This document shows positions 7,751-46,112 of a DNA stretch of 46,112 bases, in pieces. This DNA comes from Wenzhouxiangella sp. XN201 (lineage in GTDB: Bacteria; Pseudomonadota; Gammaproteobacteria; Xanthomonadales; Wenzhouxiangellaceae). The stretch is from contig NZ_JAAIVI010000021.1 in NCBI RefSeq assembly GCF_011008905.1, forward strand, positions 1-46,112, read 5' to 3'. The position numbers and the translations under genes were made by a program. Positions within the stretch are counted from its first letter, which is position 1; every line of letters begins with the position of its first letter. The notes under the pieces were generated by a model that made no database searches, was not told where the DNA came from, and saw only the letters and a list, made by a program, of their open reading frames with translations.

Positions 7751-7828
7751 GGCGGGACAGCCGGCTAGAATGAGGCGCCAATTATCCCTTTTTTGTTTCC
7801 GTGCTGCATGAGCGTCCGGAACAAATCT

Positions 7829-7979
7829 GGAACCACGGAAAACACGGAAGTCACGGAATGATGGATTCTGAACCAACGCTGGAGCGAGGGTCGCCATTCC
7901 CGAGCATGGCGTATCGCTGCGGGGAGCAAGGCGTCTTCCAACGCTTTCGTTCCGTGCTTTCCGTGTCTTCCGTGGTTCC
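7829..7979. repeat. Period-9 inverted-repeat element E1
   Basis: Left arm 7829-7858 and right arm 7950-7979 are inverted copies of 30 bases with 27 matches. Each arm is three tandem units of a CACGGAA core plus two spacer bases. The 91-base centre holds no recognised gene. The element lies between divergent gshA and oppA1, and its right arm runs into the oppA1 reading frame, encoding part of the predicted signal peptide. It shares its layout, but not its core sequence, with E2, E3 and E4. Confidence 0.85.
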
Positions 7980-9486
7980 AGTCTTCTTTGTCTTGATGCT
8001 CGCCGCCAATGCGGCAACAGCCGCCACGCTGCACCGTGGCGTTGGGCCGGAGCCGGACTCGCTCGACATCCACACCGCGCAGACCCTGTCGGCACTCAAC
8101 GTACTGCGCGATCTGCACGAAGGCCTGATCACCTTCGATGCAGGCGCCGAACTGGTGCCCGGCGTGGCCGAATCCTGGACCGTCAGTGAGGATGGGAAGA
8201 CCTGGACCTTCCGGCTCGACCCCGAAGCGCGCTGGTCCGACGGTGAACCGATCGTTGCTGCGGATTTCGTGGCCGGCTGGCGCCGCGCGCTGAACCCGGC
8301 GACCGCCTCGCCGACGGCCGCTCTGCTCGACGTGGTCACCAATGCCCAAGCCGTTCGCAGTGGCGAGGCCGATGCCGAGTCGCTCGGCGTCGAGGCGGTC
8401 GACCGGCACCGGCTGGAGGTGCGTCTGGTCCGTCCCCTGGCCTGGTTCGACGAGCTGCTGACCCATCCCGTGACCTACCCCTGGCCGGGTGATCGCGGCG
8501 AGCGCTACAGCGGGGCGTTCGTTCTGGCCGAGCGGGTCCCGGGAGCACACCTTGAACTACTTCCGAACCCCGCCTGGCGAGCGGCCGACACGGTCGCGCT
8601 CGAGGGCCTGATCTGGCACGTCATCGAACAGCCCAACGTCGAGTTGGCGCGCTACCGGGCCGGCCAGCTGCACGTCACCGAGACGATTCCGCCCGGGCGG
8701 GTCGACTGGCTGCGCGAGCAGTTCGGCGAGGAACTCAGGATCTCGCCTTATCTGGGAAGTTTCTATCTGGGCTTCAACCTGGCGCGCGAGCCGTTTGCCG
8801 AATCACCCGGACTGCGGCGCGCACTAAGCCTGGCCATCGACCGGGAACTGATCACCGAGCGGGTTCTGGGTTCGGGTGAAATCCCGGCCTGGGGACTGGT
8901 GCCGCCGGGCATGCCCGGCTGGTCCGAAGGCCGCCAACCGCCGTTGCCGGCCGCCGAGCGCCTGGCCGAGGCCGAGCGTCTGTATCGCGCCGCCGGCTAC
9001 GGTGAGCACCGGCCGCTGAAAGTGGAACTGCGTTTCAACACCTCGCTCACCCATCGGCGCATGGCGGCTGCCATCGCCGCGATGTGGAAACTGCACCTGG
9101 GCGTGCAGACCCGCCTGGTCAACGAGGAATGGAAGGTATTCGTCACCAACCGTCGCCAGGGTCGCCTGACCGAAGTGTTCCGCGGCGGCTGGATCGCCGA
9201 CTGGCGCGACGCGGCCAACTTCCTGCAGTTGTTCGTCAGTGATCACCCGGGCAACTACACCTTCTTCGACGATCAGCGCTATGACGAGCTGATGGGCCGG
9301 GCGACCCGGCTGCGTGGGCCCGAAAGGCTGGAGATGCTGCGCGCGGCAGAAAGCCGGCTGCTCGAGGAACAGGCGATCATTCCCCTGTACTACTATGTCT
9401 CCAGGCATCTGGTGAAACCCGAAGTGAGCGGATTCAAGGACAACCCGATGGACGTGCACCTGTCGCGCTGGATGACGCTGCCGTGA
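7906..9486 (+). CDS. oppA: Peptide ABC transporter substrate-binding protein (OppA-like), first copy
   Basis: Periplasmic solute-binding protein of family 5 (SBP_bac_5), expected to deliver oligopeptides to the OppBCDF importer encoded downstream. The mature part begins near TLHRGVGPEPDSLDIH and shows the family features: the N-terminal domain with LRDLHEGLITFD and WTFRLDPEARWSDGEP, then FYLGFNLAREPF and the LRRALSLAIDRE segment. The signal peptide ends in ANAATAA and has no lipobox, unlike the second copy. The start is unclear: I use the ATG at 7906 (MAYRCGEQG...), but it lies in the centre of element E1 and lacks a Shine-Dalgarno; GTG codons at 7954, 7963 and 7972 are alternatives. The stop overlaps the next gene as GTGA. 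Confidence 0.88.
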   Translation: MAYRCGEQGVFQRFRSVLSVSSVVPVFFVLMLAANAATAATLHRGVGPEPDSLDIHTAQTLSALNVLRDLHEGLITFDAGAELVPGVAESWTVSEDGKTWTFRLDPEARWSDGEPIVAADFVAGWRRALNPATASPTAALLDVVTNAQAVRSGEADAESLGVEAVDRHRLEVRLVRPLAWFDELLTHPVTYPWPGDRGERYSGAFVLAERVPGAHLELLPNPAWRAADTVALEGLIWHVIEQPNVELARYRAGQLHVTETIPPGRVDWLREQFGEELRISPYLGSFYLGFNLAREPFAESPGLRRALSLAIDRELITERVLGSGEIPAWGLVPPGMPGWSEGRQPPLPAAERLAEAERLYRAAGYGEHRPLKVELRFNTSLTHRRMAAAIAAMWKLHLGVQTRLVNEEWKVFVTNRRQGRLTEVFRGGWIADWRDAANFLQLFVSDHPGNYTFFDDQRYDELMGRATRLRGPERLEMLRAAESRLLEEQAIIPLYYYVSRHLVKPEVSGFKDNPMDVHLSRWMTLP

Positions 9487-11204
9487 GGCGGCTGTTGCCG
9501 GCGCTTTCGCTATTACTGCTGGCTGCGTGCAGCGGCGGATCCGGTGAATCCGAGCCGTTGCCGGCGCCGGAACTGTCGCAGCCGGTCGAGGTGGTCTTCG
9601 ACGAATCGGGTCAACCGTTGCCCGAAGTGCTGGCAGAAATTCAGGTGGTACACCGCGGCAACGGCGATGAACCGCAGACGCTCGATCCGCACCTGGCCGA
9701 GGGCGTCCCTTCCGCCAATATTCTGCGCGATCTGTTCGAGGGCCTGACCACGACCGCACCGGACGGCCGCGTCGTGCCCGGAGCGGCCCGGCACTGGGAC
9801 ATCAGCCGCGACGGTCTGACCTACACCTTCTTTCTCGACCCGGCCGCTCGCTGGAGCAACGGCGAGCCGGTCACGTCCGAGGATTTCGTCTGGTCATGGC
9901 AGCGTGCGGTCGACCCGGAAACCGGCGCGTCCTACAGCCGCATGCTCTCGCCCGTGCGCAATGCCGAGGCGATTTTTTCCGGCGAACTGCCGCCCGATGA
10001 GCTGGGCGTGACGGCGCTCAGTGAAACGACCTTCCAGGTACAGCTATCGGATCCGACGCCTTATTTTCTCGGCCTGCTGACCCATCCCACGACCTACCCG
10101 GTCTGGCGGCCGTCGCTCGAGGCCCATGGCGACAGCCATGTCCGCCCCGGCAATCTCGTCTCCAACGGCGCCTTCGAGCTGGCCGAGTGGCAGGTACGCT
10201 CGCGTATCGAACTGACGAAGAATCCCCATTTCCGGGCCGTCGACGACGTCATCGTCGAGCGCGTGGTCTACTATCCCTTCGAGGACGAGAATACCGAGTT
10301 CAATCGTTTTCGGGCCGGCGACCTGCACTGGACCTACCAGTTGCCATCGGGGCAGTTCGAATGGCTGAAGCGCGAAATGCCCGAGGCGCTGATGGTCGCG
10401 CCCTGGTTCGGCACGTACTTCTTCTCGTTCAATCTGACGCGCGAACCTTTCGAGGAAAACCTGGCGCTCAGGCAAGCGCTGACCCTGGCCATCGACCGCG
10501 AGATTCTGACCGAACGGGTCAGCCGCTACGGCGAAATCCCGACCTTCAACCTGATTCCGCCGGGTTTGCCCGACTACGAATCGCCACAGCCCGAGTGGGC
10601 CGACTGGACCCAGCAGGAACGCGAGGAAGAGGCCCGCCGCCTCTACCGCAAGGCCGGCTACGGCGAGGATCGGCCGCTGGAGGTCGAACTGCGCTACAAC
10701 ACCTCGGAGAACCACCGCCGCATTGCCGTGGCGATGTCGGCCATGTGGAAGCAGGTGCTGGGCGTGCGAACGCGGCTGGTCAACGAGGAATTCCGGGTCT
10801 TTTTGCAGAACCGCGCTCAGCGGCGCGTCACCGAAGTCTTCCGCTCGGGCTGGATCGGCGACTACATGGACGCCTTTACCTTTCTCGAGCTGTTCCACTC
10901 CGAGCACGGCCGCAACGACGCCGGCTTTGACAACGCACGATACGATCGCCTGCTCGAGCGCATCGCGTCCGAGCGAATTCCGGCTAGCCGCCGCAACCTG
11001 ATGGCCGAAGCCGAGCGCATGATCCTGGCCGAGCAGGTCATCCTTCCCGTCTACCACTACGTCACCAAGCGCCTGATCGACCCGCGCCTGAAAGGCTGGG
11101 AAGAAAATGTCATGGATTACCATTTGACGCGCTATATGTACCTGGTGAGGTCCCGAGAGGTCGGGGCGGAAGAGGCTTCTGAGGAGTCTGATCGTGCGGA
11201 GTAG
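9483..11204 (+). CDS. oppA: Peptide ABC transporter substrate-binding lipoprotein (OppA-like), second copy
   Basis: Second family-5 solute-binding protein of the operon, 573 residues. It is clearly related to the first copy across its whole length (shared blocks such as QTLDPHLAEG, RWSNGEPVTSEDF and EILTERVSRYGEIP, with matching C-terminal halves) but not recently duplicated. It starts at a GTG (9483) overlapping the preceding stop as GTGA. The N-terminus MRRLLPALSLLLLAACSGGS is a lipoprotein signal with lipobox LAAC (Cys16), so this copy should be membrane-tethered while the first is soluble. The two may differ in ligand range or offer soluble and anchored forms. The C-terminus has an acidic tail next to element E2. 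Confidence 0.92.
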   Translation: MRRLLPALSLLLLAACSGGSGESEPLPAPELSQPVEVVFDESGQPLPEVLAEIQVVHRGNGDEPQTLDPHLAEGVPSANILRDLFEGLTTTAPDGRVVPGAARHWDISRDGLTYTFFLDPAARWSNGEPVTSEDFVWSWQRAVDPETGASYSRMLSPVRNAEAIFSGELPPDELGVTALSETTFQVQLSDPTPYFLGLLTHPTTYPVWRPSLEAHGDSHVRPGNLVSNGAFELAEWQVRSRIELTKNPHFRAVDDVIVERVVYYPFEDENTEFNRFRAGDLHWTYQLPSGQFEWLKREMPEALMVAPWFGTYFFSFNLTREPFEENLALRQALTLAIDREILTERVSRYGEIPTFNLIPPGLPDYESPQPEWADWTQQEREEEARRLYRKAGYGEDRPLEVELRYNTSENHRRIAVAMSAMWKQVLGVRTRLVNEEFRVFLQNRAQRRVTEVFRSGWIGDYMDAFTFLELFHSEHGRNDAGFDNARYDRLLERIASERIPASRRNLMAEAERMILAEQVILPVYHYVTKRLIDPRLKGWEENVMDYHLTRYMYLVRSREVGAEEASEESDRAE

Positions 11205-11637
11205 GTTTGCCTCACGCCAGGGCGCGAAGGCGCCAGGGTCGCCAAGAAGACCTGAAGAAGATGTAATAGTGAGTGCTGCAGTCGATGAGGCTGTGAAGAT
11301 TCATCGCGATCTGGGGCCTGGCCTTCTTGAGTCGGTATATGAAGCTGTATTGGCCAAGCGGCTTACAGATCAGGGAATGCAGGTAAAGAGGCAAGTCTCC
11401 GTCCCCCTCGTCTATGAAGGAATCAAATTCAAGGAGGCTTTCCGAGCGGATATCGTCGTCAATGAGAAGGTAATACTTGAATTGAAGGCGGTCGAGAAAT
11501 TGACTCGAGCGCATAAGAAGCAGTTGCTCACCTATCTCAAGCTCTCGGAGTTGCGCGTGGGCTTGTTGCTGAACTTCTCCGAGGAACTCATGAAACACGG
11601 AATCAGCCGAGTGGTTAACCAGTTCGATGAATCTTGA
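11194..11637 (+). CDS. GxxExxY protein, PD-(D/E)XK nuclease-like, carried in element E2
   Basis: Recognised by the signature GLLESVY (GxxExxY) after HRDLGPG, and by a PD-(D/E)XK-like core: an Asp in RADIVVNEK, ELK in VILELKAVE, then LTYLKLSELRVGLLLNF. Pfam places this family (PDDEXK_3) in the nuclease superfamily; its biological role is unknown to me. The GTG at 11194 has a GAGGAG site eight bases upstream and overlaps the oppA2 stop. The first ~25 residues are simply translated repeat arm, and a GTG at 11269 would give a 122-residue protein closer to the usual family length. The stop is one base before the right arm (11639). The gene splits oppA2 from oppB, so it is an intruder in the operon. 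Confidence 0.85.
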   Translation: MRSRFASRQGAKAPGSPRRPEEDVIVSAAVDEAVKIHRDLGPGLLESVYEAVLAKRLTDQGMQVKRQVSVPLVYEGIKFKEAFRADIVVNEKVILELKAVEKLTRAHKKQLLTYLKLSELRVGLLLNFSEELMKHGISRVVNQFDES

Positions 11638-11680
11638 TTTCTTGGCGAACTTGGCGCCTTCGCGTCTTGGCGTGAGGCAA
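11207..11680. mobile_element. Candidate mobile element E2: GxxExxY gene between 42-bp inverted arms
   Basis: Left arm 11207-11248 and right arm 11639-11680 are inverted copies with 38 of 42 positions identical. Each arm is built of 9-bp units around a CGCCAAG/CGCGAAG core. Only the GxxExxY gene lies between them, and its stop codon is one base from the right arm. The unit is 474 bp and sits between oppA2 and oppB inside an otherwise tightly packed operon. I see no target-site duplication and no transposase, so mobility is inferred from the architecture. Confidence 0.7.
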
Positions 11681-40194: not shown

Positions 40195-40274
40195 GGAACC
40201 GCAGATTACGCAGATATACGCCGATTCAAGTGAGAAAGTACCAATCTGCGGCAATCTGCGAAATCTGCGGTTCC
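40195..40274. repeat. Period-9 inverted-repeat element E4 between atpA and atpG
   Basis: Left arm 40195-40226 and right arm 40243-40274 are inverted copies with 27 of 32 positions matching. Each arm is about three units of a CGCAGAT core plus two bases, and the outer ends are GGAACC/GGTTCC as in E1. The 16-base centre would be the loop of a long hairpin in the atp mRNA. No gene inside. Confidence 0.85.
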
Positions 40275-45509: not shown

Positions 45510-45715
45510 GGTTGACGCCACGGGTCGCGGCGCGGGCCTCGACACTTCAAAGGCGGTTTCGCCCGGCTTGCTTCGCAAGTTGGGCACTGGACTGGCTGAT
45601 GCCACTTGTCGCAGTGGAGGCCTCGACAAGTCAACTTCTGTTCCGCCCGCCTGCTTCGCAGGCTGATGGCGGGTAACTTTTTTCCCGCGCGAAAAAAGTC
45701 ACCAAAAAACGCGCT
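45510..45715 (-). repeat. Structured intergenic repeat, copy R2 (inverted relative to R1)
   Basis: On the minus strand it has the same order as R1: hairpin A (45672-45703, 13 pairs, loop 45685-45690), then two units each with a B hairpin (45649-45663, stem GCCTGC/GCAGGC; 45567-45579, stem CTTGC/GCAAG, GAA loop when read on the minus strand), the TGTCGAGGCC linker and a C hairpin (45602-45617, CCACT/AGTGG; 45516-45532, CGCC/GGCG). Most stem changes against R1 are compensated. The rest of the 45505-46061 gap shows no credible gene. Confidence 0.85.
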
Positions 45716-46061
45716 TAAAAGCAGGCGGTTGCGCCTCAAGATCCTTCAGGCGGAGTGGCTTCACGGACTGTGACTGGGGCTTTGCTTGGGCCCGGCTGCG
45801 GAACATGCTGGCTTGCGATGACGCCTGCAGCGGCCCGCATCTGGCACTAAGACTTCGAGTGGCGTTCCAGCCCCAACCACTGTTCCACGATCAATCGAAG
45901 CCGACCCCGATCGAGGTCGTGCTGTCTGGGTGCGGGCTACGCCAGGGCCTTATCGAAAACGCCATGTTTCACGACCGAACACTAGCGAAGGCACGAACGG
46001 TATCTCCGTTAAGCCCAGGAGCCTTCTGGTCCTGCGGACCAACCGCGTCTTCTAAGAGCGT

Positions 46062-46112
46062 TTTTGGTGACTTTTGTCGCGACTGACAAAAGTTACTCGC
46101 CCAAAGAGCTTG
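46062..46112 (+). repeat. Partial repeat copy R3, identical to bases 1-51
   Basis: 51 bases exactly equal to the first 51 bases of the window, in the same orientation: hairpin A at 46066-46097 and the start of the first B hairpin, cut off by the window edge. It fits either a sequence end inside a dispersed repeat or an overlap that would close the window into a circle of 46061 bp. Confidence 0.95.

Follow-up and report, generated by a model that had tools for sequence, protein, structure and literature searches.

We found that genes of the GxxExxY family are typically enclosed by a pair of inverted arms made of short repeated units, and that the arm type of one such gene, located in the opp operon of Wenzhouxiangella sp. 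XN201, recurs elsewhere in its genome as inverted pairs that hold no gene. The association of inverted arms with GxxExxY genes is real and general. Our preferred reading, to which we assign a probability of about 55 %, is a REPIN/RAYT-like system in which a resident nuclease would be tied to dispersed inverted-arm elements, the opp unit being the gene-bearing member. The window referred to below is the whole stretch of DNA analysed (46,112 nt); an earlier note on it had proposed that the opp unit is a minimal mobile or self-spreading unit, a proposal that held up only in part, as the arms are dispersed and the gene mostly remains in place.

The opp unit begins with a left arm of 42 nt on the forward strand (11207..11248), composed of the 8–9-bp units CGCCAGGG CGCGAAGG CGCCAGGGT CGCCAAGAA, and ends with a right arm on the reverse strand (11639..11680). 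The arms are 90 % complementary (38/42), are separated by 390 nt, constitute the longest inverted pair within 700 bp anywhere in the window, and align with a score of 64, whereas none of 100 shuffles exceeded 30. A single ORF lies inside (longest form 11194..11637, forward strand), the stop codon of which ends at 11637, so that the right arm begins one base past it; the earlier description of arms enclosing this gene alone and nearly touching its stop codon was therefore accurate. This ORF scored above the respective cut-offs of 22 and 35 bits for PF13366 (E 5.9e-40, 136.7 bits) and TIGR04256 (E 1.3e-40, 138.4 bits), and the only ORF between the arms is thus a PF13366 gene, neither RAYT nor S23p/IVP. 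As the family match starts only at residue 26–27 of the long ORF, the initial residues of that ORF are a translation of the left arm (arm plus linker before residue ∼22), which for the window gene confirms the suggestion of a repeat-derived N-terminus. The likelier start is the GTG at 11269, from which the probable coding sequence runs to 11637 on the forward strand; the PF13366 match in a genome search spanned 11269–11613. The unit is bordered by a gene for a solute-binding protein and by oppB, and is not inside an rRNA gene; its neighbours (Pfam) are solute-binding proteins of family 5 and a permease of the BPD_transp_1 type. Other ORF junctions of the opp operon overlap by 4, 4, 1 and 4 bases (9483/9486, 12639/12642, 14567/14567 and 15592/15595), and one (13544/13587) is a gap, so the unit does interrupt an operon with mostly overlapping junctions, as had been noticed.

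An AlphaFold model of the window protein, built with 43 sequences, reached a mean pLDDT of 88, with residues 1–16 below 50. Its best Foldseek match, itself weak, was the Cas4 protein SSO0001 (PDB 4ic1; E 1.1e-3, TMq 0.41), and the next weak matches were lambda exonuclease, MGME1 and AdnAB. The putative active site consists of D86 and E96-x-K98 (11449..11487, forward strand), a RecB/Cas4-like set to which E46 (11329–11331), Q110 (11521–11523) and Y114 (11533–11535), on the same strand, also belong; in 25 sequences E46, D86, K98, Q110 and Y114 were invariant, and E96 was conserved in at least 90 %. We take the combination of D, ExK and QxxxY to be the motif of the RecB/Cas4 branch of PD-(D/E)XK nucleases. 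A profile search of PDB sequences returned just a Cas4 chain (E 0.71), and in searches that bear on a role in defence, matches were also weak in PADLOC (RTasPDDEXK, E 2.3e-4; Cas4, E 0.0036) and in PHROGs. On the strength of the model and these residues, the window protein appears compatible with the RecB/Cas4 branch, and we refer to it as a putative nuclease.

Arms were present at all five PF13366 places in the genome of the window, one of which is truncated (scores 47–81, versus 30 or less in shuffles), and their sequence differed from place to place. For a broader view we compiled 168 GxxExxY loci from this genome, its relatives, a phylum draw of 396 genomes, and 79 named loci from many phyla; the latter stem from the best 80 of at least 580 candidates against the profile of one subfamily and are not a random draw. 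L120 was excluded because its sequence contains L093. With 11 loci left out that did not have 300 bp on both sides, 157 were testable, and 135 of these, from more than ten phyla and including orthologs, had inverted arms within 300 bp at a score of at least 30; a lack of arms at most genes of the family, which the earlier note would have taken as refutation, was thus not seen. At this score, arms were detected at 3/471 sham positions, 2/312 boundaries of other ORFs and 40/600 cross-locus pairs, the excess in the last being due to the resemblance between arms of different loci. At a score of at least 38 the corresponding values were 115/157 for GxxExxY loci, 1/471, 0/312 and 10/600. The remaining 22 of the 157 loci scored below 30. 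Among the named loci with flanks, chosen by similarity from the best 80 of at least 580, 63 of 73 were armed by hand count. Armed units had a median length of 480 nt.

Most arms are made of 8–10-bp units of the kind CRCNRA[G/T/A/C], e.g. CRCNRAG, and their self-similarity at lags of 8, 9 and 10 was 0.417, 0.323 and 0.355, against 0.28 after shuffling (0.337 at lag 2). Many of them read like TCACGCAAAGGCGCAAAGACGCAAAG, in loci titled Cyanobacteriota, Planctomycetota, Bacteroidota, Verrucomicrobiota, Acidobacteriota and Pseudomonadota, among others. In 42 of the 157 loci the gene was additionally flanked by direct repeats (score at least 30, up to 189). Two approaches were discarded. The direction of neighbouring genes as judged by the longest open frame (++ in 61/127) was set aside because this measure is noisy in high-GC DNA, and it had called the sufC side of L001 on the wrong strand. 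The pattern CGCNARGNCGCNARGNCGC with two mismatches was too loose for counting (149 matches versus 150 in a reversed control); just its exact and near-exact places were kept as leads, and subsequent patterns were stricter. Rfam gave no match at gathering scores among 20 loci. Within the open-licence PMC papers searched, with preprints outside the scope, we found no earlier description of the association between arms and GxxExxY genes; in the parts of the articles consulted, the family is named once, near a CRISPR-like RT (PMC8934634), and one viral GxxExxY gene is listed (PMC12085832).

The unit sequence of the arms varies together with the protein. In a gene tree of 162 proteins, which is based on few columns and has many weak forks, a clade of 32 rows received a support of 99. 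Of the 129 armed loci in the tree, seven with fewer than three units were left out of the comparison; all 26 armed loci of this clade had units that mostly end in a base other than G (CRCNRAT, or with A or C), whereas the units of all 96 others mostly end in G. This difference in the last base corresponds to one change on the tree, and hence to one deep event kept in step rather than to many independent ones. Such co-variation, seen at the level of sequence, would fit with recognition of the arms by GxxExxY. The tree also mixes phyla. Furthermore, two distant GxxExxY clades with different arms (L057 and L097 versus L004, L056 and L094) were seen, in different species, upstream of what seems to be the same short-chain dehydrogenase gene.

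In the genome of the window, 14 of 16 forward matches to the window arm pattern had an inverted partner 91–458 nt away, one of the 14 being the gene-bearing unit itself. We read 13 gene-less pairs in full, measuring 91–196 bp from arm to arm; these are dispersed inverted doublets with a variable spacer, as in REPIN/RAYT systems. Arm identity was 0.84 within an element and 0.86 between elements. The arm type of the gene at L004 likewise occurs in six further gene-less pairs and one unpaired arm in this genome; thus, both the window gene and the L004 gene are flanked by repeats of a dispersed flavour. The 13 gene-less interiors are unrelated to each other at the median (12, versus 12 for shuffled sequences), with the best pair (24) above the shuffled maximum of 20. 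Compared with the gene-bearing interior, the 11 gene-less interiors of the window type (type 1) scored 26 at best (shuffled 95th percentile 20, maximum 27), and five interiors of type B scored 17 at best. By these alignments, the gene-less interiors bear no clear relation to the gene-bearing element, from which MITEs would be expected to derive.

Two further gene-less elements are found in the window. One of CCGCAGATT units (40195..40274, unstranded) lies between genes for an ATP synthase alpha/beta-family protein and the gamma subunit (Pfam), and the arms of the GxxExxY gene at sufB|sufC are the most similar to its own (35 and 45 against L001; next 33 and 28 against L002). The other, of ACCACGGAA units (7820..7988, unstranded), is located at the 5′ end of the ORF for the first solute-binding protein and has arms similar to those found in a divergent branch of GxxExxY (L057, L097, L072); no GxxExxY gene with arms of this type occurs at the five gene places of this genome. 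At the window end (45668–46101) we also observed a 41-nt inverted pair of AAAAAAGTCACC type, 352 nt apart, that is unlike the CRCNRAG arms.

The GxxExxY genes themselves appear to be resident for the most part. Orthologs occupy the carA|carB junction in G000, G019, G002, G018 and G015, and the sufB|sufC junction in G000 and G026, with another beside sufC in a different genus (G034); similar arms accompany each set, with neighbours assigned by eye and, for L047 and L001, confirmed with HMMs. In the eight of 13 ortholog pairs for which it was computable, dN/dS was 0.04–0.15, with synonymous sites often near saturation, and by this sequence measure the gene is under purifying selection. A search with the window protein as single query, which may miss distant relatives, matched 7 of 72,556 plasmid records and none of 50,697 phage records. 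The opp-site gene is present in G000, G003 and G023, the three full copies of which group in the gene tree (support 88), and has an internal deletion in G005; the arms at this site score 40–64 within each pair and 13–38 between species. In six more species the opp site has gene-less arms of other types (score at least 28), and 12 of 22 showed no arms in the spacer that was measured, seven of these with the two frames touching or overlapping. The gene-less or empty opp alleles that the earlier note proposed to look for are thus present in the genus, so that its second refuting outcome, the gene at this site in all relatives, did not occur either. In G025, arm-like repeats were seen inside the upstream frame of this site.

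These data bear on the alternative of an autonomous mobile element, for which the arms would be terminal inverted repeats, the nuclease would move the unit together with its gene, and the gene-less pairs would be MITEs that arose by internal deletion. The tight fit of the arms around the gene, truncated copies inside arms (L005 and G005), the mixing of phyla in the gene tree and the absence of the opp-site gene from many congeners would all agree with it. However, copies within one genome have diverged from one another and differ in their arms, orthologs hold the same junction across species, and the gene-less interiors resemble neither each other, at the median, nor the gene-bearing one, and we therefore regard this explanation as unlikely. 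The same observations speak against a cassette that spreads with its own gene, as first envisaged: the five places of this genome have five arm sequences and differing proteins, orthologs remain at carA|carB and sufB|sufC across species, and it is the gene-less arm pair that occurs in many copies.

We counted three arm types in 30 congeneric genomes, with reversed-pattern controls that gave no matches except for five in the third search; the thresholds (at least 17 and at least 10 matches) were chosen after the counts were seen, and as genera share descent, the counts are not independent and the contrasts are inflated. Type A arms (CCGCAGATGAACGC) had 17–43 matches in seven genomes and 0–3 in the remaining 23, and were abundant in 5/5 genomes with the carA|carB gene versus 2/25 others (Fisher p 1.5e-4, kinship ignored), with both type-A-rich genomes in which no gene was found being incomplete assemblies (65 % and 88 %). 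G003 and G010 have sister genes with CACAGATGAACAC arms and no match of the CGC type, and G027, which has a decayed gene copy (E 4.0e-4), has one CCGCAGATGAACGC-type match. Type B arms (CGCAAAG..CAGC) reached at least 10 matches in five of seven genomes with the gene or a remnant (5 and 3 in the other two) versus two of 23 without it (Fisher p 0.0027, kinship ignored). The window arm type had 10–30 matches in G000, G028, G003, G010, G001 and G012 and 0–2 elsewhere; four of these six yielded a gene whose arms are of this or a similar type, and G010 and G001 (75 % and 65 % complete) yielded none. Genomes rich in an arm type in which no cognate gene was found were G001, G005 and G010, and, for type B, G012 and G028. 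We also scanned the phylum draw for a generic pattern of three units, which was present on both strands in 20 of 39 genomes with the gene and in 10 of 357 without it (p 5.5e-16); the other 19 gene-positive genomes did not show it, and the pattern is blind to the non-G clade because it has a fixed 8-bp spacing and ends in G. All ten pattern-bearing gene-negative genomes belong to two families (f58 and f64) in which the gene is frequent. Across the genus, arm-type copy number thus tends to follow the presence of the cognate GxxExxY gene.

The intergenic sites of these elements are shared between species, although not always by the same arms. We looked up eight gene-less sites of this genome in five relatives and detected inverted arms (score at least 30) in 23 of the 37 site regions retrieved, usually of another arm type. 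G003 had TCTCGC arms at four sites, which is the arm type of its own opp gene; G011 and G017 had CGAAATCC-like arms at three; and G019 had 7-bp units at five, one element there holding an IVP gene (L259 within L313). At L297 and L305, inverted-arm elements are nested inside others of a different type. A third arm style (CGAAATTCGAAATCC with GAAGCACGAA) was also noted in G011 and G017 (L202, L203, L278, L279, L298, L299) and in G022 (L216). At four sites shared by G000 and G003, their interiors scored 23, 15, 24 and 21 against each other, compared with 13–26.5 for non-orthologous pairs, and at three sites G011 and G017 align by eye as orthologs, less well between the arms. Element-free alleles exist, with flanks too diverged to define junctions or a target-site duplication. 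Judging from these alignments, sites may be shared either through repeated insertion at tolerant positions or through replacement of arms in place.

The IVP gene at one of these sites is not an isolated case. We looked for genes for IVP four-helix proteins (PF05635) in 61 genomes, and of 49 listed places we tested 25, the sham control being for the GxxExxY set only; 19 were in inverted arms at a score of at least 30, and 16 at 38 or more. Their arms are mostly of 7-bp units, e.g. GGGAGAC and GGTGACG, and the genes here (L230–L259) lie outside rRNA. In the sections consulted of two published accounts, IVP occurs in rRNA insertions (PMC11270868), and the intervening sequence (IVS) of Coxiella 23S rRNA has an S23p ORF, a 28-bp stem, GACAGAT heptamers and excision by RNase III, the origin and functionality of such IVSs being described as unclear (PMC4990558). 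IVP genes in 7-bp-unit arms, arm pairs in the ten gene-negative genomes and differing arm classes at the same sites could indicate that some other enzyme, e.g. a RAYT or an IVP-type system, spreads arms at tolerant intergenic sites, with GxxExxY as one of several cargoes. As a cargo would not account for the match of arm unit to protein clade, nor for gene and copy number going together, we consider this quite improbable. A wider proposal, possible but distinctly more doubtful than our preferred reading, is that GxxExxY and IVP are two drivers of a large, unrecognized, multi-phylum class of hairpin-armed elements, which would share intergenic sites and replace each other there. The elements of a genome would carry the arm sequence of the current driver, driver specificity and arms would co-evolve, giving a natural series of nuclease and target that can be followed in genome sequences, and 23S rRNA IVSs would be members that landed in rRNA.

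When folded as RNA, the window unit forms a long terminal stem from the arms at its two ends, and the gene occupies the loop, at −203.2 kcal/mol versus −164.6 for shuffles (sd 6.5, z −5.95). Arms could be hairpins kept for a role in RNA, such as processing or mRNA tolerance or stability, as in 23S rRNA IVSs, by RNase III or another host factor, with the gene as a passenger in the loop; besides the stem, the occurrence of the unrelated IVP family in similar arms and the differing arm types at the same sites in different species would suit this idea. For a passenger, however, one would expect neither a correspondence between its clade and the arm unit nor a link between its presence and how many gene-less arms there are, and a purely RNA-based explanation is in our judgement improbable. 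In the REPIN/RAYT-like reading that we prefer, GxxExxY would act in trans as a resident nuclease of the Cas4/RecB type, recognizing its own arm unit in DNA, perhaps single-stranded or as an extruded hairpin, and nicking or cutting at the arms; cutting would allow intergenic sites to receive copies of arm pairs or to regain them. In the transcript, the stem formed by the arms would leave the gene in its loop, as in 23S rRNA IVSs, which may explain why an insertion between co-transcribed genes is tolerated. Speaking against this reading are the loci that scored below 30, the gene-positive genomes that do not show the generic pattern and the gene-negative ones that do, the genomes rich in an arm type in which no cognate gene was found, the element at 7820..7988, the similar architecture of the IVP genes, and the one pair of interiors above the shuffled maximum.

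If correct, this reading would give a function to a widespread family so far named after a motif alone, tie repeats inside housekeeping operons (car and suf, and opp and atp in the window) to a cognate enzyme, and link the origin of 23S rRNA IVSs to a genome-wide class. It would also mean that partnerships of the REPIN/RAYT kind arose with an unrelated class of nuclease as well. With protein clades and arm units already paired in nature, recognition is open to a direct test.

Among known systems, Cas4/RecB-type nucleases (SSO0001, lambda exonuclease) have the closest folds and the D/ExK/QxxxY motif in common with the window protein, and are remote in sequence. MITEs and insertion sequences have inverted ends and dispersed gene-less copies, as do the arm elements; unlike them, the arm elements showed no transposase domain and no conserved interior, and their gene copies are not multiplied, while no duplication was seen at sites whose flanks are too diverged to define one. 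The 23S rRNA IVS, as far as the consulted portion of its description goes (PMC4990558), resembles the window unit in its length of ∼430–480 nt, in a single small ORF enclosed by inverted arms that consist of short repeats, and in an RNA stem whose loop contains the ORF. The window unit differs in that it lies in a protein operon, encodes PF13366 and not S23p/IVP, and has units of 8–10 and not 7 bp. For REPIN/RAYT systems, the extracts consulted (PMC3116915) describe distinct single-copy RAYTs, each of which has a separate flavour of dispersed doublets whose spacers are less conserved; shared with the arm system are extragenic inverted doublets, several flavours per genome, insertion of element into element, and a distinct single-copy nuclease gene adjoining each flavour. 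Here, by contrast, the enzyme is of the PD-(D/E)XK type and not a HUH/Y1 transposase, the arms are of 8–10-bp tandem units, and the gene is enclosed by the two arms of a single unit; as the enzyme is unrelated to RAYT, the arm system is not a member of that group. By this comparison, the arm system would work like REPIN/RAYT, through a presumed movement of its arms, and be built like an IVS, with a nuclease and repeats of its own.
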